The notes below the pieces were generated by a model that searched no databases, was not told where the DNA came from, and saw only the letters and a program-made list of their open reading frames with translations. DNA of 24,409 bases from assembly GCA_030530905.1 (NCBI GenBank), contig JAUMUB010000004.1, positions 1 through 24,409 of the forward strand, read 5' to 3'. This DNA comes from Bifidobacteriaceae bacterium (GTDB lineage Bacteria > Actinomycetota > Actinomycetes > Actinomycetales > Bifidobacteriaceae). A program made the translations under genes and the position numbers. This document shows positions 1,170-21,833 of the stretch, one piece after another (the stretch's first letter is position 1; every line of letters starts with the position of its first letter).

Positions 1170-4100
1170 CTATATCCACATAACGCCCGTTTTATTGCAT
1201 AGTTCTTCCACGATTTTTAAGAGTGATTTCATATGACCGCCAATCCCTATATCTTTAACGAGTAGCCCACCATTATATAAACTAACAACAGGAATATCTC
1301 CCCAACCTTGCATATTAAAATTACCCAGATAAGTACTTCTACCATGCACCGAGAGTAACTTTGTACTTGTGGAATCGTATAAATAAAACTCGTCAGCATT
1401 CATTTTGGCTTCGGCTGTAGGTTTGTTTTCTATCGTGTTGTTAAGAGTGAATTTTATACCAGCCAGCCTACTATTATCACTTTTTCTAACATTAAAAGCA
1501 GAAGTCAGATAATCTGGAGAACCGCCACTGTTATTATTCAGAAAAGTTGTAATTTCAAAGATTTTGTCACCCGCGACACGTTGTATGTATCCGTAGTTAT
1601 TATTAAAAGTTAGCGTTCCTCCGTTTAAATCGAATATAGTCGCTCCGTTTGTACTCTTTAGTTTTCCTCCAGTAATCATGTCTGCTGTGATAGAATTAGC
1701 AACTATTTTAGATGCGTCAATGGAGTTCGAAGCTATCTTGTCGCTCGTGATAGCACCTGCAGCAATATTTGCTGCACTAATTGTTCCTGTTTTGATTTGC
1801 GCACTGGTAATTGTGCCACTTGCAATTTGACTAGCTGTAATGCTACCAGCTTTGATTTTGGCTGCATCTAATGTGCCAGCTGTAATGCGGTCACCATTAA
1901 TGCTGTTTGCGCTCATTTTGTCTGTGGTGACTGCACCAGCCTTGATAGCGTCAGCAGTCACGGCATTACTTGAAATCACATCAGCGGTAATGATTTTACC
2001 GTTGAGATGCGCCGTATTGATTTGCTTGCTGGCAATCTTATCACTAGTAATTGCTCCGCTAACAATCATGTTTCCTTTGGCATTAATCTTGTCTGAAAAT
2101 AGGTTGATAGCATTTTGATTAACGCTGAAATAAGAGCCTACCGCATTAGCAAAATCACTGGTCGACTTGCCAGCTTTGATAACCACTCCATCTGTGTTAA
2201 TGGTCAGACTGGAACTCTTGACTGTATTATTATCAAGACTTTGTACACTCGCCTTAATTGTGTCTGTGGTCTGTTTAAATTCGGATTGTGCAGTCTTTAA
2301 GTCTTGACTACTTGCTAATTCAGCTAACGAAGGACTCCAGCCATTGTTTGATTTGCCTTTTTTAACGGAAACATCACCAAAATACAGGTCGGCATTTGAT
2401 CCAGCGGTACTTGTCCCATTATTGTCGATGCGAATATAACCTTCGTCATATTCCCCTGTGTTAAACGTGACAATAATTTCTTCGGCAGCACCTGCTGATA
2501 GTTTGCGTTTTAACAATCTTTGTGGTTCGTCATAATCTGACGTACTACCTTTTTTCCGCTTTAAAAAATACACTTCTGCCGTTTCCAAAAGCACGTTATT
2601 AAAACCTTTAAAATAAAGCGTGTAGTCTGTGTTTCTTTCAATTTTAAAACGGTTAAAATTTAAGAAAATTTTACTTGTGTTCGTGTTGCGCAAAATATAC
2701 ATCTTGTAAGCGCCGTTATAATAAAAGGAATGCGTGGTATATTCTGCATTATTATATGGACTGTAACCATCAGCTGGTCTGCCATACTCGACAAGGTTCA
2801 TTTCACCGCTTGGTATTTTACCATCAACACTCGTAATCTTACTGCTCAACTCGTTAGCTTTCGCTGTGATGTTGTTTTCAGCAGTTGTCACACGACCGCT
2901 TAACGTATTGAATTCAGATTGCGAAACCTTAGCTTGCAAGCCAGTATTCAATGCGCTGATTTGGGTCGTGTGTGTGCTGATTGTTTGCGCGTTGTTGTTA
3001 GCTTTGTTGGTAGCTGTGTTGATACCAGATTGCAACTCAGCCTTAGCACTGTTAACCTCTGTTTTTGTTGCAAGCAAGGTCATTCCGTCTGCGGTTTGCT
3101 TAATTTCACTAGAAACTTTAGTAATAGCTGCATCGGTATCTAGCGGGCTGGCAGTATAAGCAGTTGCCACACCGCCTTCTTCTAATTTGACACCTGCCAG
3201 CCAGACTTCGTCAGTGGTTGAGTTACCGTCATGCCTAAATAGTAGATGTTTATAGACGTTTTCAGCACTTGCTGGACTGTCTTTGAGTTTGTATACAACG
3301 TAGTAACGCTGCCAGTTTGGTGATAGATTAATGTAGAGTAAGCCATCATCGCGGGTGGTAACGGTCTGCCCTTGATTGGTACTACCGCTTGCAACACCTA
3401 AAAAACCTCTTGCGCCGTAAAAAAATATCTGTAGACTGAAATTTCCCTTAGCCCAAAAACTCACTGTGTAAGTACCACCTAAGGTTGGATATAAACAATT
3501 GTTAAATTGTATAATATCTTGATAAGAAGAACTTGCGTCTGTGTTTTTAAAGTACCGTACCGCACAATCTTTATAAGTGTCGCCGTTAAGTTTTCCATAT
3601 CCACTCAGATTGTTCCCATTAAATTTCTTAGTATCACGTAACAAGTTGACCCCGCCAATTTCAGTCGGTATTTTACCTTCAACAGCTGAAATAGTAGTCT
3701 TTAATTGACTGGCTGTTTGGTCAAACTCTGACTTATTCTGCTTAACCGTACCATCTAGGGCTTGTACAGTACTTTGCAAACTTGCGTAGTTTTGGTCAGC
3801 GTTCTGTTTGTACTCAGCTACTTTTTGTTCGATGTCGGCTTCGTTTGGACTGTAGTCTTCGACTACTGCAGATAAGTAAAGATTAAAGTTTTCAAGACTT
3901 ACTGCTGTGTTAAGTGGAAGAGTATTGTTTAAACGAATGAATACATTATCAGTTTTGTAGCTATTACCAGCACCACTCAAATTAAACTTCAAATCAAAGT
4001 GTTGTAAAGCGGTTGTGCCACCTTTGAATGTAATGCCACCGCAGTTATACCAAGGACTAGCGCTAAAATGGACATTTGTTGTAAAATCTGACGGCAAAGC

Positions 4101-6170
4101 TGGATTGAAAGCAATATCAAAAGACATTCTCACGTAGTCTTTAGTAAAACGAGTATCATTTTTCCAAAAATCGTCATCAATAAAAGTTCTGACGTCTTGT
4201 GTTTCTGTATTATCAATATAGTATTTACGTGATTTTGAATTTTTGAAATAGTTTCGACTACCGATTTTTAAAGTTTCAAACTTCGCACTCAGCCCATTCA
4301 AGCCAGTTTCAAGTGTAGCTGTTTTTTGACTGGCACTGTCAGCTGTCGTCTTAACTTGAGATAGTGTTGTTTTAGTTCCTGATAAATCATCTTCAACTAC
4401 TTTAGTTCGTGCAGTAACGCTAGTAATACTCTTCGTATTACTATCTACCGTTTTGCTTAACTCGCTAACAGTCGTCTTCGTACCATTTGCGGTCGTTTCA
4501 ACAGTCGTCACACGTTTAGTCAATTCAGTTTGGGCATTAGCCTGCGTCTGCAATTGTTTGGCGTGGCTCGTCAATTCTTGCTTAGCTGTGTTTAACTCGC
4601 TAGTGACGTTAGTCAAGTCTTGCTTAGCTTTATCAACTGCTGCTTGGGCATTGTTTGCGACAAGACTTGTCGCAGTTAAGTTATTCTTAACGTTAACCAA
4701 GTCCGCCTTGATTTCCCCCGCTGCCGCATTGGCTAGCTCTGCCACCTTGGCTGTTTCTTGGTTAATCGTGTCAGCGTATTCCTTGGCGTTGCTTTCTGCT
4801 TGCGTTTTGGCTGTTTCAATCTTCGTTTCGATTTCCGCTTTTGAGTTAGCCAATTCCTCGGCAATTTTGTTTTCAAATTCTTCACGGTTTGGTACGTCTT
4901 TTAGTTCCTCAGCTATCTGTTCCTTGAATGCTTCAACGTCGTCAATAACTGGATTGATTACCCAATCTGCACCGTTCCAATAATACTGCTTGACCGTATC
5001 ACCAACAGTCAAAAACAATAAATCACCAGTCTTTAATGTGCCTTTAGGGTTATCTACTGGAAAGCTGTCACCGTAATAGTTCGTGTTCTTTCCATCAGCA
5101 GAAATAAGAGCTTTATTAGCGATGCTATAAGCGTTGCTTGCTGTATCTGAAGCGCTTGCCGCTTGTTTCTTGGTTAAGTTATAACTAGCAGACAATTTCT
5201 TAACCGTGCCAATATCATTACAAGTCACCTCATGTTTGACAAGAATCCCTTGAACGTCATATTCACTAGTAAATGACACAATTCTGATTTTTTCTTGAAA
5301 ATCAAGCGTTTCATTGATTGCCATGATATAATCACCAGCAATTGGTTGCTTGTATTTATAACCTGCTCGGGTCAAGTCTTCCATATCAAGACTAACAGAA
5401 ATGGTGTAAGAATTATCAACGTTTTCTTTCAAGACAGCTAACAGGCTACCGCTTTGTGAGTAACGCTCGTCAACGAATGGCTCAGCTTCTAACTTGCCAT
5501 AAACACTAGCCAATGGACTTGTGTATTCAACCTCAAGTCGTCCTTTTGAGTGGTCTTCTTCGTCAAAATAAGCTCCATAACCTTTCTGGTAAGTGACAAA
5601 ATCGCCGATATTCTTTTCAATCGTCAATTCATTCATATTAAAGTTTTTACGGACGACTGTTGACAAGTCTGTTCCGACTTTTTCCAGAATACGGACAACC
5701 TTACCGTTGACTTGAAACTCAACACCTGTGGACGTGATAATGTCGTTAAAAAGTGTTAAACGTTTCTTTAGACCAAATGATTGTTTTTCAAATGCATAGA
5801 CGTTCAATGCAGAATCGACTGTATAAGAATAACCGCTGTTCTTGAAGATAAAATCAAGATAAGCAACAAAGGTATGAGAACCGTCTGTCAACTGGTCATA
5901 GACTGATGACTTGTCAAAGTCCCAGAAAAACTGATGGACAGCGTCAAACTCCACTTGGACGTCTCTACCTTCGTCGATTGGCTTAGCATAAGTCACGACA
6001 TAGTATTCGTCGTCAAATCGCAACCGCCAACCACGTTCAATATTAGACAGAACGTAATCACCAGATACAATTGTCCCAGTTAGCGAACGTTCACCATTGA
6101 CGGCATTAGTTGCCTTGATAGTAGACAAAGCGCCATGTTCGACGTCGTTTTCATCTAAAAATGTAATCAA
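1170..6170 (-). CDS. Tail endopeptidase / receptor-binding tail-tip protein (Tal-like, 1666 aa)
   Basis: Residues about 1-320 resemble the prophage endopeptidase tail (Tal) domain that forms the tail tip below Dit. Then come a short domain at about 355-395 (GDSFPVDNPKG, YYWNGADWV) and a long Ala/Thr/Lys/Gln-rich helical region (about 410-635). Three jelly-roll, carbohydrate-binding-like modules (about 637-775, 837-1010, 1122-1279) are separated by short coiled coils. Thirteen decapeptide repeats of the type AGAITSDKIA span 1371-1500, and a C-terminal receptor-contact domain fills about 1500-1666. The start is TTG at 6170, supported by GGAGG seven nt upstream. It lies 12 nt after the Dit gene. 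Cell-wall polysaccharide recognition is inferred; module boundaries are read by eye. Confidence 0.88.
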   Translation of the reverse strand: MITFLDENDVEHGALSTIKATNAVNGERSLTGTIVSGDYVLSNIERGWRLRFDDEYYVVTYAKPIDEGRDVQVEFDAVHQFFWDFDKSSVYDQLTDGSHTFVAYLDFIFKNSGYSYTVDSALNVYAFEKQSFGLKKRLTLFNDIITSTGVEFQVNGKVVRILEKVGTDLSTVVRKNFNMNELTIEKNIGDFVTYQKGYGAYFDEEDHSKGRLEVEYTSPLASVYGKLEAEPFVDERYSQSGSLLAVLKENVDNSYTISVSLDMEDLTRAGYKYKQPIAGDYIMAINETLDFQEKIRIVSFTSEYDVQGILVKHEVTCNDIGTVKKLSASYNLTKKQAASASDTASNAYSIANKALISADGKNTNYYGDSFPVDNPKGTLKTGDLLFLTVGDTVKQYYWNGADWVINPVIDDVEAFKEQIAEELKDVPNREEFENKIAEELANSKAEIETKIETAKTQAESNAKEYADTINQETAKVAELANAAAGEIKADLVNVKNNLTATSLVANNAQAAVDKAKQDLTNVTSELNTAKQELTSHAKQLQTQANAQTELTKRVTTVETTANGTKTTVSELSKTVDSNTKSITSVTARTKVVEDDLSGTKTTLSQVKTTADSASQKTATLETGLNGLSAKFETLKIGSRNYFKNSKSRKYYIDNTETQDVRTFIDDDFWKNDTRFTKDYVRMSFDIAFNPALPSDFTTNVHFSASPWYNCGGITFKGGTTALQHFDLKFNLSGAGNSYKTDNVFIRLNNTLPLNTAVSLENFNLYLSAVVEDYSPNEADIEQKVAEYKQNADQNYASLQSTVQALDGTVKQNKSEFDQTASQLKTTISAVEGKIPTEIGGVNLLRDTKKFNGNNLSGYGKLNGDTYKDCAVRYFKNTDASSSYQDIIQFNNCLYPTLGGTYTVSFWAKGNFSLQIFFYGARGFLGVASGSTNQGQTVTTRDDGLLYINLSPNWQRYYVVYKLKDSPASAENVYKHLLFRHDGNSTTDEVWLAGVKLEEGGVATAYTASPLDTDAAITKVSSEIKQTADGMTLLATKTEVNSAKAELQSGINTATNKANNNAQTISTHTTQISALNTGLQAKVSQSEFNTLSGRVTTAENNITAKANELSSKITSVDGKIPSGEMNLVEYGRPADGYSPYNNAEYTTHSFYYNGAYKMYILRNTNTSKIFLNFNRFKIERNTDYTLYFKGFNNVLLETAEVYFLKRKKGSTSDYDEPQRLLKRKLSAGAAEEIIVTFNTGEYDEGYIRIDNNGTSTAGSNADLYFGDVSVKKGKSNNGWSPSLAELASSQDLKTAQSEFKQTTDTIKASVQSLDNNTVKSSSLTINTDGVVIKAGKSTSDFANAVGSYFSVNQNAINLFSDKINAKGNMIVSGAITSDKIASKQINTAHLNGKIITADVISSNAVTADAIKAGAVTTDKMSANSINGDRITAGTLDAAKIKAGSITASQIASGTITSAQIKTGTISAANIAAGAITSDKIASNSIDASKIVANSITADMITGGKLKSTNGATIFDLNGGTLTFNNNYGYIQRVAGDKIFEITTFLNNNSGGSPDYLTSAFNVRKSDNSRLAGIKFTLNNTIENKPTAEAKMNADEFYLYDSTSTKLLSVHGRSTYLGNFNMQGWGDIPVVSLYNGGLLVKDIGIGGHMKSLLKIVEELCNKTGVMWI

Positions 6171-16760: not shown

Positions 16761-18249
16761 CAGCATTTACCTCAACGTCAAAACGTGGCTCTGGTTCTTG
16801 TGGCTCTTCAGCTTTTAGACGTTTCAATTCATCTTCCGCATCAATTCCAGTCACCTGTTCTAACAACTCGTAAACTGTTTGATCGCTTACCACACCAAAC
16901 AACGACTTAGCAATATTCGCACGTTCAGCATCATTTTGTGGCAAGTTAGGACTGAAAATAACAGCAGTTTGATTGATAGCTTGATAATTCGTAGCTTCAT
17001 TGCCTTTAACTTTCCAGATATTTACCGCTAAGCGTAACCGTCGCATAAGTCCTTTTTTGAATAGACGTTCTTGCTTGCTACGGTAATTATCAGATGCCAT
17101 CAGTTTGTATTTCATTGATTCGCCTGACTGGATACCGCTAAAGTTATTGTCAAGAATATCAGGCGTAAACGTAAAGCGAAGAATATCATTCACTAGGCGT
17201 TGCTTATACGCTTCAGCACCAGCTGAGTCATATTGCTTAACTAAGTATTTAGCATCTGGTTGTGAACCACCAGGATTAGGATTATCGTCAAGCACAGCAA
17301 TTTGTGCTTTCTTAAAACCAAGCGCTACACCCAGACGTCCATTAGGATTAACACGACCATCTTCAAGATAATCGTTATCATCTGAACCAGTATAAGGATT
17401 TCCAGTGATTACCAAGATAGCATCATTACTATTTTGTTGGAAATTAGCCAGTTCAGATTGTGATAAATCGTAAGCGTCAATGTCATCAAGAACTGATTCA
17501 TAAGCGCCTGTGCGGTCTTCGTTATTCTTAAATTCGTTAATTGGAACACCTTTAAGATAATGTTGTACTGGTTCATCAACTAAACGAAGGCCAAACTTGT
17601 CTTGATTATCGTCAACATACGTGTAAATCATGTTGTCTGAATAGACACGCACTACCATTTTGCGGTGACCCCTACCATAATCAACTTCATAATAATTGAC
17701 ACCTAACAATGATTTTTGTTGGTAGGTATCATCATAAATAACAAATGTCTGTTCTGGTGCTAAATGATACAGCTTTAAAACGATATTGCCGTTTTCATCT
17801 TCTTCTGGATTTAGCAACTCATAAGCACGCCCATAAATAGATAAGTCAGTCTTAATCAAGATATTGTGATAGGCTTCGTTTGTTTGTTCAGAAAACGTAT
17901 CAATCAATTCTTGGAGCGTTTTATCCTCGTTTATATACTTAACAGGATTGCCAAGCATATAGCCTTGTTCAAATACTGTAATGTACTTAGCAAAGTCGCT
18001 TGAAATACGATTATCAGCCGCAAATTCGTCTGTTTTATCAGGACGGTACTTTATATTGTTATCACCTAAATAGTACCGTTTAAGCTCTTTTAAACGCTCA
18101 ATTTGCAGCTTATGTGTATTGATATATCGTTTTAATTGTTCAATCCATTTTTGAGACGCAAAATCAATAGCTTCGTAGTCTTCCGTCAGCATGATAATTT
18201 GGTCGTTACTATGTGGATTAAATCTGGTTTTAGATAAAAATTTTACCAT
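16729..18249 (-). CDS. Portal protein, SPP1 gp6-like
   Basis: This protein of about 506 residues has the features of SPP1-type portals: the N-terminal region with LKRYYLGDNNIKYRP, then RISSDFAKYITVFEQGYMLG, and later GIQSGESMKYKLMASDNYRS, a well-conserved portal segment. The portal is the dodecameric channel at the capsid vertex through which DNA is packaged by the terminase and to which the neck attaches. The frame is open to a TTG at 18261 overlapping the TerL stop, but ATG 18249 has GAGG six nt upstream and is the likely start. The C-terminus is acidic and Glu/Pro-rich (about 480-510). Confidence 0.92.
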   Translation of the reverse strand: MVKFLSKTRFNPHSNDQIIMLTEDYEAIDFASQKWIEQLKRYINTHKLQIERLKELKRYYLGDNNIKYRPDKTDEFAADNRISSDFAKYITVFEQGYMLGNPVKYINEDKTLQELIDTFSEQTNEAYHNILIKTDLSIYGRAYELLNPEEDENGNIVLKLYHLAPEQTFVIYDDTYQQKSLLGVNYYEVDYGRGHRKMVVRVYSDNMIYTYVDDNQDKFGLRLVDEPVQHYLKGVPINEFKNNEDRTGAYESVLDDIDAYDLSQSELANFQQNSNDAILVITGNPYTGSDDNDYLEDGRVNPNGRLGVALGFKKAQIAVLDDNPNPGGSQPDAKYLVKQYDSAGAEAYKQRLVNDILRFTFTPDILDNNFSGIQSGESMKYKLMASDNYRSKQERLFKKGLMRRLRLAVNIWKVKGNEATNYQAINQTAVIFSPNLPQNDAERANIAKSLFGVVSDQTVYELLEQVTGIDAEDELKRLKAEEPQEPEPRFDVEVNADDEENGEEAR

Positions 18250-20070: not shown

Positions 20071-20110
20071 TTATGTCTTGTTATGTCTTACTATGACTTG
20101 TTATGTCAGC
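20071..20110 (-). repeat. Four 10-bp direct repeats upstream of late promoter (candidate activator sites)
   Basis: Plus-strand units are TTATGTCTTG, TTATGTCTTA, CTATGACTTG and TTATGTCAGC, exactly 10 bp each. They span about -42 to -81 from the inferred start of the terS transcript, one helical turn apart, and overlap the last codons and stop of the ArpU-like gene. The block at 20061-20070 (CGCTGTCTCT) may be a fifth, degenerate unit. Position and period suggest binding of an activator on one DNA face. Confidence 0.6.
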
Positions 20111-20506
20111 ATTTTCAAGATCTTTTTGAGCAGCTTTTTTCAGTCTAAAATAAGTTCGCTCGCTGATTACCATTTCATCCATTACTTCATACATCGACAT
20201 CTTATCAATGTACACAAGACTTAGAATAGTTCTGCTTGCAGTATCTTCCAAACTATCAATCATATTCTGCAATTCTCTGCGCTTTTGAATAGCTTCAACT
20301 GTCTTATTATCAATCTCATCAATCGAATCAAGTAATTCAACATATACATCATCTTGCTTTCTATTCAATCCACCTTTGACCTTATCAGCGGACCATCGAG
20401 GACTTGAAAGTAATGAAGCACTAAGTCTATCTCGTCGTCTGATTAAACTTTGGATGTATAAATCTAAATTTCTTAAATCTTTCAAAATAGTCTTAGCTCT
20501 ACTCAC
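20081..20506 (-). CDS. ArpU/DUF1492-family late transcriptional regulator
   Basis: This protein of about 141 residues is helical and basic. A long N-terminal helical region holds RAKTILKDLRNLDLYIQSLI and PRWSADKVKGG. The C-terminal sigma-region-4-like helix-turn-helix is at about 93-133 (TILSLVYIDKMSMYEVMDEM, then ISERTYFRLKKAA). Proteins of this group, encoded just before terS, are the late activators (Ltr/ArpU/RinA-like) that switch on the packaging-to-lysis operon in Gram-positive phages. The frame is open to a TTG at 20512, but GGAGG is 1 nt from it and 7 nt from GTG 20506, so GTG is chosen. Its 3' end contains the 10-bp repeats it may bind itself. Confidence 0.85.
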   Translation of the reverse strand: MSRAKTILKDLRNLDLYIQSLIRRRDRLSASLLSSPRWSADKVKGGLNRKQDDVYVELLDSIDEIDNKTVEAIQKRRELQNMIDSLEDTASRTILSLVYIDKMSMYEVMDEMVISERTYFRLKKAAQKDLENADITSHSKT

Positions 20507-20522
20507 TTTCAATCCTCCGATA

Positions 20523-20531
20523 TGATATAAT
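20523..20531 (+). promoter_or_regulatory. Candidate plus-strand promoter (perfect extended -10)
   Basis: TGATATAAT matches TGnTATAAT exactly. No -35 is seen at the expected distance. A transcript starting near 20538 would meet the plus-strand terminator at 20556-20582, so it would be only about 45 nt. No plus-strand gene lies downstream. It could also occur by chance in AT-rich DNA. Confidence 0.35.
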
Positions 20532-20532
20532 A

Positions 20533-20541
20533 GTTATAGCA
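20533..20541 (-). promoter_or_regulatory. Candidate promoter of the ArpU-like gene
   Basis: Minus-strand TGCTATAAC matches the extended -10 with one mismatch and would start RNA near 20526, about 20 nt before the GTG start of the regulator. The -35 region is poor. It faces the plus-strand candidate within the inverted repeat. Confidence 0.4.
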
Positions 20542-20555
20542 TTTTAAATCATATC

Positions 20556-20582
20556 GAGCTTGCGTGAGCAGGCTCTTTTTTT
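20556..20582 (+). terminator. Plus-strand intrinsic terminator
   Basis: GAGCTTGC and GCAGGCTC form an 8-bp stem (one G-U pair) with loop GTGA, followed directly by TTTTTTT. The run of T is on the plus strand only, so it acts on rightward transcripts, although no plus-strand gene is seen in the window. Confidence 0.75.
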
Positions 20583-20585
20583 ATT

Positions 20586-20609
20586 AAAAACGGGCAGGCG
20601 CACGACCCG
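20586..20609 (-). terminator. Minus-strand intrinsic terminator upstream of ArpU-like gene
   Basis: Minus strand CGGGTCG...CCTGCCCG forms a GC-rich hairpin (one internal mismatch) followed by TTTTT. It faces the plus-strand terminator, with the two T runs only 3 nt apart. It would separate early transcription from the ArpU-like gene. Confidence 0.65.
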
Positions 20610-20660
20610 ACCACCATTTTTAGTAGCGCCTTGCATAATAACAGCCGACTGTTAGAGCTG
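20586..20660 (-). ncRNA. Candidate ~75-nt structured leader or small RNA
   Basis: A perfect extended -10 upstream and a terminator downstream would give an RNA of about 75 nt. It contains a 6-bp hairpin, TAACAG/CTGTTA with a TCGG tetraloop (20639-20654). The minus-strand segment AGGCGC (20626-20631) can pair with GCGCCT (20596-20601), which is part of the terminator stem. The two folds exclude each other, as in attenuators. No known riboswitch family is recognised. It may act on ArpU expression by controlled read-through or be an independent small RNA. Confidence 0.4.
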
Positions 20661-20666
20661 CGTTAG

Positions 20667-20675
20667 ATTATAGCA
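20667..20675 (-). promoter_or_regulatory. Candidate minus-strand promoter (perfect extended -10)
   Basis: Minus-strand TGCTATAAT matches the extended -10 exactly. At a 17-bp spacing the -35 region reads GAGACC (three of six matches to TTGACA). Transcription would start near 20660 and read leftward into the structured leader. Confidence 0.55.
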
Positions 20676-20716
20676 GTAACACTTAAAAAGGTCTCCTCAC
20701 TTTCTATATTTTCATT

Positions 20717-20773
20717 TCAGCCTTGCCAGCTAGCGCCTAGTAACCAACTGACTTGTACTTTTAGAAATTGCAA
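20717..20773 (-). CDS. Possible 18-aa leader peptide
   Basis: A TTG codon at 20773 has GGAGG seven nt upstream and opens a short frame (MQFLKVQVSWLLGASWQG, stop TGA at 20717). The ribosome site is partly inside a small GGAG-GAA-CTCC hairpin. This interval holds no other gene. The peptide has no known relative that I recognise, and it may not be translated. Confidence 0.2.
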   Translation of the reverse strand: MQFLKVQVSWLLGASWQG

Positions 20774-20810
20774 AGGAGTTCCTCCATTCTTTTTTTAAAA
20801 TTCTAGGCTT

Positions 20811-20850
20811 ATACCCACGAACCGAATCGAACGGTTCTAGATACCATTGC
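20811..20850 (-). repeat. 40-bp direct repeat, copy A (T-arm-like hairpin)
   Basis: Identical over 40 bp to 21025-21064, and both are followed by GGT after one mismatched base. On the minus strand it contains a 6-bp stem, GAACCG/CGGTTC, closing the loop TTCGATT, which fits the tRNA T-loop consensus. In this copy the flanks ACCCGC and GTGGGT can also pair (one G-U) like an acceptor stem. The element therefore resembles a tRNA reduced to acceptor and T-arm, about 43 nt long. Confidence 0.8.
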
Positions 20851-20942
20851 GGGTTACATTTCCATGTCTGTAAATTCAATTTGATTGTCTAAAATGCCAC
20901 TACATACATAGATACTTTGGAAATTGGGACTATTTCTGGTTA

Positions 20943-21022
20943 TAGAGAGGGAGGGATTCGAACCCTCAAAGCTTTACGCTCCCTGATTTCAGGTAACCAT
21001 CTTCCAATTCTGAGACCTCTCT
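20943..21022 (-). tRNA. tRNA-like gene or degenerate tRNA (isotype undetermined)
   Basis: On the minus strand a 7-bp acceptor stem AGAGAGG/CCTCTCT is perfect. The T-arm GAGGG-TTCGAAT-CCCTC is perfect, and a D-arm-like segment (TCAGAATTGGAAGATGG) includes the invariant GG. The variable region is long (AGC-GTAAA-GCT), as in Leu/Ser-type tRNAs. The anticodon arm does not fold into a good 5-bp stem with a 7-nt loop: the bases CCTGAAATCAGG form a self-complementary block instead, and the best alternative has a mismatch and an 8-nt loop. CCA is not encoded. It is either a decayed tRNA or a tRNA-like RNA with another role. It lies between the two 40-bp repeats. Confidence 0.55.
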
Positions 21023-21024
21023 GA

Positions 21025-21064
21025 ATACCCACGAACCGAATCGAACGGTTCTAGATACCATTGC
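21025..21064 (-). repeat. 40-bp direct repeat, copy B (T-arm-like hairpin)
   Basis: This second copy begins 6 nt after the YopX-like gene's stop codon and ends 3 nt before the tRNA-like gene (reading on the minus strand). It has the same T-arm-like hairpin (21033-21051) as copy A. The acceptor-like flank is weaker here (ACCAGC against GTGGGT, one mismatch). Spacing between copies is 214 bp. Confidence 0.8.
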
Positions 21065-21070
21065 TGGTCA

Positions 21071-21454
21071 TTATCCTTCTAATAATTCTGGATTTTCGTA
21101 AATGTTACCAACAACTTCGAGAGAACTAAAGTAAATGTCTTCGGCCAGTTCTCCAAAAGTAAAAAAATAACCTCCATCATCTACTAATCCAAATCCTGCA
21201 AAGTCCTTGTTATATGTTACAGCCCCTGTGAAAGCATTAACGACATACTTATATTTAACAATATCACCCTCATAAATCTCTTTGCCGTTCTTATCTTTAA
21301 GCCCTGTTGATTGCATGAGGATAAAATCGCTCGCTGGCACTTCATCAAAAGCAATTTCGTCATAACTTAGCAATAAAGTATCATCTTTGAAAGGATAGAC
21401 ATCGTGATACATCACTTCGCCTTCTTCCGTCCAAACTCTAAATTTTGGTTTCAT
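21071..21454 (-). CDS. YopX family protein
   Basis: This 127-residue protein begins MKPKFRVWTEEGEVMYHDVY. It contains the YopX hallmarks FILMQSTGLKDKNGKEIYEG (about 63-82), DIVKYKYV, and a C-terminal VVGNIYENPELL. YopX proteins are common in Firmicute phages and prophages and have no established function. The frame is open further upstream (to 21568), but ATG 21454 is preceded by GAGGTGG and matches family starts. The gene overlaps the DUF1642 gene by 17 nt. It is the last clear protein gene before the repeat/tRNA-like interval. Confidence 0.88.
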   Translation of the reverse strand: MKPKFRVWTEEGEVMYHDVYPFKDDTLLLSYDEIAFDEVPASDFILMQSTGLKDKNGKEIYEGDIVKYKYVVNAFTGAVTYNKDFAGFGLVDDGGYFFTFGELAEDIYFSSLEVVGNIYENPELLEG

Positions 21455-21833
21455 CTTCCACCTCTTTAATTTCAAACGCTGGGTTATTCCAAATTCCAAC
21501 ACCTTCCCACGTCTCCTGTGTTTGTTCCACGCCCGACGTGAAAGGACTACAAGACATAAACCATTCACCTAGCTTCTCATTCCAACCCAGATATTGGTTT
21601 GTGTCTCTAAAAGAAGCGAGATACAGCTTCTCTTTCTCAACCTCATATCCGAAAAGCTTCATCTTAACAAGTGTCACAATTGGTTTGTTATCATCATTAT
21701 CAAACCAAATGTCTATTTGTCTTACCGGTTTACAGCCCTGAACACAGAGACATTGTACGCTATATTCAAAATTATCTTTGTGTTCCTCGTACCAATCAGC
21801 CACGTATTGCGGTACCACTGGTTTTTTGTCCAT
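21438..21833 (-). CDS. DUF1642 family protein
   Basis: This 131-residue protein has the DUF1642 start pattern KPVVPQYVADWYEEHKDNFE (about 4-23) and the family's C-terminal pattern WNNPAFEIKEVE (about 115-126). Such proteins are small, acidic and typical of the early accessory region of Streptococcus and Lactococcus phages; their function is unknown. AGGAGG lies 6 nt before ATG 21833. It carries two close cysteines (CLCVQGC at about 28-34), which may be incidental. Confidence 0.82.
   Translation of the reverse strand: MDKKPVVPQYVADWYEEHKDNFEYSVQCLCVQGCKPVRQIDIWFDNDDNKPIVTLVKMKLFGYEVEKEKLYLASFRDTNQYLGWNEKLGEWFMSCSPFTSGVEQTQETWEGVGIWNNPAFEIKEVEDETKI

Follow-up and report, generated by a model that had tools for sequence, protein, structure and literature searches.

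What is the RNA in which a tRNA-like element stands between two nearly identical hairpin repeats, each built like the top half of a tRNA? The locus lies in contig JAUMUB010000004.1 of assembly GCA_030530905.1, a genome bin assigned to Bifidobacteriaceae, and the whole 24,409-nucleotide stretch analysed is called the window here. We found that the repeats, hereafter minihelices, and the pseudoknots that accompany them are structures of the RNA of one strand, conserved and with covarying pairs. The minihelices form a well supported RNA family, and the region would encode a noncoding RNA of modular build that belongs to temperate phages of streptococci, with top-half minihelices and loop-seed pseudoknots in alternation.

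The initial annotation, made from the sequence of the window, had noticed three T-arm hairpins on one strand. All three were recovered, as two minihelices and one 80-nucleotide element on the minus strand, which is the reading direction of the adjacent YopX, DUF1492 and terminase genes. The minihelices are:

21026 to 21068, minus strand: minihelix copy 1; acceptor ACCAGC/GTGGGT with one A-G mismatch, linker AATGGTATCTA, T-stem GAACCG/CGGTTC, loop TTCGATT, discriminator A, next base T.
20812 to 20854, minus strand: minihelix copy 2; acceptor ACCCGC/GTGGGT, linker AATGGTATCTA, T-stem GAACCG/CGGTTC, loop TTCGATT, discriminator A, next base T.

The 43-nucleotide plan is that of a tRNA top half, with 6 + 6 base pairs (bp) of acceptor and T-arm and a T-loop UUCGAUU. 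An 11-nucleotide linker with GG replaces the D-arm and the anticodon arm and leaves space for neither, so that the earlier description as acceptor plus T-arm only was correct. The repeats had also been called identical over 40 bp, and the two minihelices do share 40 identical nucleotides; in the 44-nucleotide direct repeat (20811-20854 and 21025-21068), 43 positions agree, the sole difference being C/A at acceptor position 4, where copy 2 pairs 6 of 6 and copy 1 has its A-G mismatch. When folded alone, copy 2 formed the acceptor and T-arm (-15.0 kcal/mol, z -2.0), and the best fold of copy 1 retained the T-arm with a different lower part.

Loci were fetched via the DUF1492 gene and via a conserved 3' motif. 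Many of them hold minihelices that share the plan and differ in their letters, as in L009 (ACCAAC-AACGGTACTT-CGGACG-TTCGACT-CGTCCG-GTTGGT) and L070 (GCCTATG-ATGGTCTTGAG-CGTGA-TTCGATT-TCACG-CATAGGC), and several carry two to four mutually different copies (L036, L098, L100, L106). The exact core of the window repeat was found in one IMG/VR contig. A strict descriptor (12 bp, T-loop, 8-14-nucleotide linker with GG) gave 59 sites in the 116 fetched loci (722,742 bases; a few of the loci are near-duplicates) and 0 sites in each of 20 dinucleotide shuffles, in which N-containing loci were not shuffled. In all seven phage records similar to window 20550-20860, the matching stretch carries no annotation; the record of vB_SbS-pSY22 gives S. 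ruminicola as host.

Compensatory stem changes in related phages, a check that the initial annotation had called for beforehand, were found in two ungapped alignments, A3 (17 rows, among them window copy 2, with an 11-nucleotide linker) and A4 (12 rows, 11 distinct, with a 10-nucleotide linker). In A3, 204 of 204 cells were paired and two-sided changes occurred at 12 of 12 pairs; the covariation score was 0.784, where shuffles averaged 0.337 (0 of 500 as good) and slid structures reached at most 0.285. The corresponding values for A4 were 132 of 132 cells paired in the 11 distinct rows, two-sided changes at 9 of 12 pairs, and a score of 0.780 against 0.234 for shuffled and at most 0.153 for slid structures. 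Together, two-sided changes were seen in 21 of the 24 pair columns of these 29 copies. Pairing was a condition of the descriptor with which most of the rows were picked, so the complete pairing is partly by construction; this does not hold for the two-sided changes or for the asymmetry of G-U over A-C. The 29 copies were drawn from 37 matches of model R1, the remainder being duplicates (L041, L051), a copy with a 12-nucleotide linker (L038), irregular copies (L037, window 21023-21071) and three weak matches (L049, L002:3108, window:3124). A further alignment, A6, was built on the model's structure. Across 46 distinct model-aligned copies, the stem cells comprised 522 Watson-Crick pairs, 22 G-U, 0 A-C and 1 A-G, with 7 gapped. 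Departures through G-U without A-C indicate that selection acts on the RNA of the minus strand, on which the minihelices lie.

The features outside the stems are nearly constant in the same 46 copies. The linker carries GG in 45, the T-loop is TTCGANY in 39 and one position off in the other 7, the discriminator is A in 39 and G in 7, and the base after it is T (U) in all 46, with a background T of 0.31. Minihelix linkers are mostly 10-11 nucleotides long, with extremes of 8 and 14. Among the best 30 of 51 tRNA matches in S. vicugnae (G112), one of them a phage tRNA, none encodes CCA, and in 28 the discriminator is followed by T. In the tRNA elbow, G18 and G19 dock on the T-loop, and by analogy the linker GG may do the same. 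Length, loop and 3' context, which are what general tRNA enzymes read, are nearly fixed. Acceptor letters vary among copies, and hence charging by a single synthetase is unlikely.

The initial annotation had ended the array too early. Beyond minihelix 2 it continues to about 20591 through pseudoknots, each made of a seed and a downstream hairpin whose loop pairs with it:

20803 to 20808, minus strand: pseudoknot 1 seed GCCTAG, starting at the fourth base past minihelix 2.
20725 to 20752, minus strand: pseudoknot 1 hairpin, GTCAGTTGGT and GCTAGCTGGC enclosing TACTAGGC; CTAGGC in its loop pairs with seed GCCTAG.
20717 to 20722, minus strand: pseudoknot 2 seed GGCTGA, pairing part GGCTG.
20641 to 20662, minus strand: pseudoknot 2 hairpin; CAGTC in its loop pairs with GGCTG, in a register shifted relative to the 31 modules counted below.
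20626 to 20630, minus strand: possible pseudoknot 3 seed GGCGC, by eye.
20591 to 20609, minus strand: possible pseudoknot 3 hairpin, CGGG and CCCG enclosing TCGTGCGCCTG, then T5, by eye.
20081 to 20512, minus strand: gene of a DUF1492 protein (Pfam PF07374, 134 bits), 3' of the RNA array.

The possible third pair, GGCGC/GCGCC, was seen by eye only and precedes the DUF1492 gene. Many minihelices run straight into a 5-8-nucleotide seed pairing with a downstream hairpin loop, and under a strict definition with the seed anchored beside the minihelix, 32 of the 59 minihelices had a pseudoknot, compared with a mean of 1.2 and a maximum of 3 in 60 rounds of shuffled downstream sequence. Of the 17 loci that were new in the order sample, this test took 13, leaving out L119, L122, L123 and L124. 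For the 3' module in a fixed register, the hairpin was complete in 31 modules, and 29 of these had a complementary seed, with 8 seed types; these seeds were taken among a few motif-picked candidates, and the window's own shifted 3' module stands outside the 31. The exceptions were L100 and L090, the latter of which we take to be an accidental match to the anchor. Since the pseudoknot modules precede the DUF1492 and terminase genes, their placement suggests that they may take part in the early-to-late switch. In L021 (about 2640-2820) and L049 (about 4010-4180), another structured-looking unit, of the CCCACGCAAGCG...GTGGG type, replaces the minihelix before the pseudoknot module. Just 5' of the DUF1492 gene, the window has an inverted repeat CGATATGATATAA/TTAAATCATATCG (20518-20556), a possible operator.

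Between the minihelices lie the third T-arm and a seed-like sequence:

20943 to 21022, minus strand: tRNA-like RNA of 80 nucleotides with a 7-bp acceptor, a 5-bp T-arm and a short variable-arm hairpin, aligned with 8 homologues.
20935 to 20941, minus strand: seed-like AACCAGA, directly 3' of the tRNA-like RNA, with an intact counterpart AACCAGA/TCTGGTT in L007.

An ordinary functional tRNA was the outcome that the initial annotation had set against its own proposal. ARAGORN called neither a tRNA nor a transfer-messenger RNA (tmRNA) in the window, and the 80-nucleotide element scored 28.2 bits with the Rfam tRNA model (RF00005), below the gathering score of 29. Where the anticodon arm is expected there is a short hairpin CCTG-AAAT-CAGG; its loop has 4 nucleotides in the window and, on inspection, 4 or 6 in the 8 homologues, instead of 7. 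The acceptor, T-arm and D-loop-like letters are retained in the window and all 8 homologues, and among them the T-stem changes two-sidedly from GAGGG/CCCTC to GGAGG/CCTCC. The element, which we take to be leucine-like, looks like a tRNA derivative that kept the top half and lost decoding, with no usable anticodon loop. A search for similar DNA gave 58 streptococcal phage records, mostly matched via this element; among the matches listed, 13 of 40 records annotate it as tRNA-OTHER, and often it is unannotated. Further phage tRNA-like genes with odd anticodon arms were seen at L005:3274-3354 and L166:1179-1257; ARAGORN calls the L005 gene tRNA-???, and the MismyG record labels its copy tRNA-Tyr. 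The pseudoknot finder gave no hairpin matching the AACCAGA seed in the window, which leaves a broken module. An ordinary tRNA was dropped as an explanation for the minihelices as well: on 16 loci, most with full tRNA genes, model R3 reached at most 15.6 bits.

The near-identity of the two copies had been offered as a sign of either strong constraint or recent duplication. Constraint was rejected, as copies within other genomes differ (L036, L098, L100). The open frames 5' of the two copies bear on their origin:

21071 to 21568, minus strand: YopX-domain open reading frame, which stops directly before minihelix 1.
20854 to 20931, minus strand: open frame ending ...SPNFQSIYVCSGILDNQIEFTDMEM-stop, the tail of a phage gene; one base of its stop codon is shared with minihelix 2.

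Over 23 residues, the tail before minihelix 2 is 78% identical to a protein of Javan472. With the tail of another phage gene in this place, recent modular recombination or duplication is the most likely source of the repeat identity. The YopX frame before copy 1, the gene tail before copy 2 and the orphan AACCAGA seed fit a recombination that may have joined two arrays at a shared minihelix.

Over its whole length (1-24409), the DNA of the window has its best matches in streptococcal phages and its bin belongs to another genus; it likely comes from a streptococcal phage and was binned with a different organism. The base composition of the window, 0.395, falls within the 0.37-0.40 of four readable stretches of the bin. 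The design occurs among phages and prophages of streptococci, and in the rest of the order it is sparse. Ten of the 17 genomes with matches in the order sample lie outside the 284 Streptococcus genomes searched, and at most of their loci no streptococcal pseudoknot follows the minihelix, a short hairpin often standing there instead (by eye). In L101, L112, L116 and L121 to L123, the minihelices lie outside a DUF1492 locus, and several such minihelices are followed by a short hairpin and then by a ribosome-binding-site-like stretch and a start codon (by eye). No minihelix was found in L012 to L020 and L035, which have related DUF1492 genes with full tRNA-type genes directly 3' of them. Phage Sfi21 of S. 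thermophilus (L110) has two weaker minihelix-like elements (2787-2827, 2895-2932) in a stretch unannotated in its record.

What, then, would the minihelices do? We consider it probable that host RNase P and RNase Z recognise them and cut a modular noncoding RNA from the phage transcript. The RNA would be transcribed jointly with the upstream phage genes; RNase P would measure 12 bp from the T-loop and cleave 5' of the acceptor, and RNase Z would cleave 3' of the discriminator, at the invariant U. These cuts would separate the upstream message from the pseudoknot modules, a tRNA punctuation by mini-tRNAs, and the freed minihelices could gain CCA as host tRNAs do. The minihelices bear the 12-bp ruler, the T-loop, the CCA-less end and the trailer base found in Streptococcus tRNA genes, which makes a processing site, judged from these marks, the best of the roles suggested in the initial annotation. 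RNase P cleaves model hairpins of acceptor and T-arm at the canonical site with 12 bp as the ruler (PMC11143913), and it measures from the elbow (PMC4919913). Streptococcaceae tRNAs are CCA-less, RNase Z cuts past the discriminator, and one mapped trailer starts with U (PMC8549757); in its structure, the B. subtilis RNase Z is reported to contact the T-arm and acceptor only (PMC7479834). An open frame of at least 30 codons stops at -15 to +3 of the minihelix in 21 of 48 cases, often with the TAA of TAACC, a count made without a control and including minihelices inside arrays among the 48. Upstream frames that end at the 5' end of a minihelix are in keeping with co-transcription and, together with the length and sequence marks, favour excision of the pseudoknot modules. 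More tentatively, and with slightly less than even confidence, we propose that the phages have made a free-standing mini-tRNA, in which the GG-containing linker closes the elbow of the acceptor/T-arm half, and that the arrays are cutting marks passing a new class of pseudoknotted RNA to the tRNA-maturation enzymes.

Several points weigh against excision or leave its basis thin, the lack of a control for the stop counts among them. We infer processing by host enzymes from sequence, and an RNA that stays uncut could need U and GG for its structure. The minihelix DNA does not encode the RCCA 3' end with which RNase P pairs (PMC10731613), and pre-tRNAs lacking arms are reported to be processed by archaeal RNase Zs and not by the B. 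subtilis enzyme (PMC7479834). Minihelix 1 of the window has its acceptor mismatch. No anchored pseudoknot was found for 27 of the 59 minihelices, including most of those outside Streptococcus; the finder failed to detect pseudoknots in L099 and L107, and seed-loop complementarity is broken in the 3' module of L100. The modules of L021 and L049 lack a preceding minihelix, so that minihelices are not obligatory. The distribution is also sparse: 11 of 284 Streptococcus genomes including the two centre genomes (model R2), 17 of 395 genomes of the order sample at E<=1e-3 (model R3), several of them weak, 2 of 398 genomes sampled evenly over the class, both of them the centre genomes, 1 of 112 in the genus of the window's genome, which is that genome itself, and 2 of 296 in the phylum sample of its bin, namely itself and one weak partial match. 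In searches of more than 40 genomes, stricter filters lost weak matches, and the model E-values are rough. The candidates in Sfi21 and L049 were weak with R3 (19.0 and 19.9 bits).

The main rival to excision is an ornate RNA that stays uncut, with minihelices and pseudoknots as domains of one large fold; its T-loop and linker GG would form a tRNA-like elbow for docking, dimerisation or protein binding, comparable to tmRNA and large phage RNAs. We regard this as unlikely, though it is a serious contender. Several modules occur per locus, with GG in nearly every copy, and a pseudoknot seed at most 5 nucleotides from the minihelix could let the helices stack; the large phage RNAs ROOL and GOLLD adjoin tRNA islands (PMC12286853). 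A single fold sits poorly, however, with module number and order that vary, with minihelices that stand in other contexts and lack the streptococcal pseudoknot (L101, L112-L120), and with a U after the discriminator and a missing CCA that match Streptococcus tRNA genes.

Decoys are much less probable. As such, the minihelices would mimic the tRNA acceptor and elbow and occupy, or shield against, tRNA-directed enzymes such as host nucleases or anti-phage toxins, which would suit a tRNA top half that stays constant while its letters vary from copy to copy, its presence in several copies in a genome, and the absence of a decoding part. No partner gene or target was identified, and no search aimed at one was made; the conserved pseudoknots and the recurrent placement would be left unexplained. 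Very unlikely is an element acting as DNA, that is, a recombination, attachment or terminase site with the hairpins as protein-bound palindromes. It could account for the position 5' of the terminase genes and for near-identical 44-bp repeats, but the attachment and terminase-site idea was dropped on the count of 22 G-U versus 0 A-C; moreover, the loops are asymmetric, the pseudoknot topology has a covarying seed and loop, and stem letters differ widely among phages. The attachment relic considered in the initial annotation found no support. Decayed phage tRNA genes without present function are the least credible explanation. The 80-nucleotide element does have a tRNA-derived look and a shortened anticodon arm, but all 8 aligned homologues have the same defective form as the window, with compensation in the T-stem, and the minihelix stems are fully paired across diverse letters.

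Is the design known under another name? Like these arrays, tmRNA has no anticodon arm, and its pseudoknots lie elsewhere in the molecule; its third-pair G-U is needed for alanine charging, whereas the third acceptor pair of the minihelices is C-G or U-A in all A3 and A4 rows. MALAT1 mascRNA and the plant-virus tRNA-like structures are eukaryotic, single-copy and of other folds. The likeness to these two, the latter named in PMC11143913, is a tRNA-like site for tRNA-processing enzymes; for viral tRNA-like structures, the difference in acceptor letters between minihelix copies argues against one charging enzyme. The tRNA-like domain of tmRNA resembles the minihelix as a tRNA mimic with a T-loop (PMC8394870). 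YrlA, a bacterial Y RNA, is likewise a modular noncoding RNA with a tRNA-like domain, but it has D-, T- and acceptor-like arms and a large Rsr-binding basal stem (PMC8394870) not seen here; the minihelix has no D-arm, and none of the 8 window proteins given to Pfam belonged to an Rsr-type family. The RNase P model substrates such as AT1 (PMC11143913) are alike in shape, having acceptor and T-arm with a T-loop and no D- or anticodon arm, but those are designed, whereas the minihelices are natural, repeated and equipped with a linker GG. Non-tRNA phage RNAs cut by host RNase P include the P1/P7 C4 antisense RNA (PMC11143913) and the phi80 M3 RNA (PMC10731613), and the excerpts of these papers do not describe arrays of T-loop/GG minihelices for them. 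GOLLD and ROOL are large structured phage RNAs of unknown function near or containing tRNAs (PMC12286853); their Rfam covariance models gave no match in the window, in 10 loci or, at gathering scores, in 20 further loci. A known Rfam family was dropped more generally, as none but tRNA stood above its cut-off in the window and these 30 related loci. A weak sR41 match at 16776-16839 (21.8 bits, cut-off 54) was set aside, as were two weak matches in the 10-locus scan (a plastid element and tRNA-Sec), both on tRNA-type genes. Among the literature matches listed, no title or abstract start describes minihelix-pseudoknot elements. While tRNA mimicry is already well known, no family that could be tested resembles an array in which mini-tRNAs are combined with pseudoknots, and the minihelix-pseudoknot RNA is real and apparently undescribed.

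A tRNA finder misses minihelices, and the related 80-nucleotide element is often unannotated or filed as tRNA-OTHER, which is a warning for the annotation of such loci. A natural minihelix of acceptor and T-arm with a 10-11-nucleotide linker comes close to the smallest test-tube tRNA substrates. If it is processed in cells, heavily sequenced streptococcal prophages would be revealed to carry an unannotated RNA, and for RNase P, RNase Z and CCA-adding enzymes the minihelices would provide a ready evolved set of minimal substrates. If the mini-tRNA proposal is true, there would be a natural counterpart of the tRNA minihelix, which is familiar from laboratory constructs and figures in theories of how tRNA arose. 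For the phages themselves, processing would mean that they use minimal tRNA mimics to cut a multi-part transcript.
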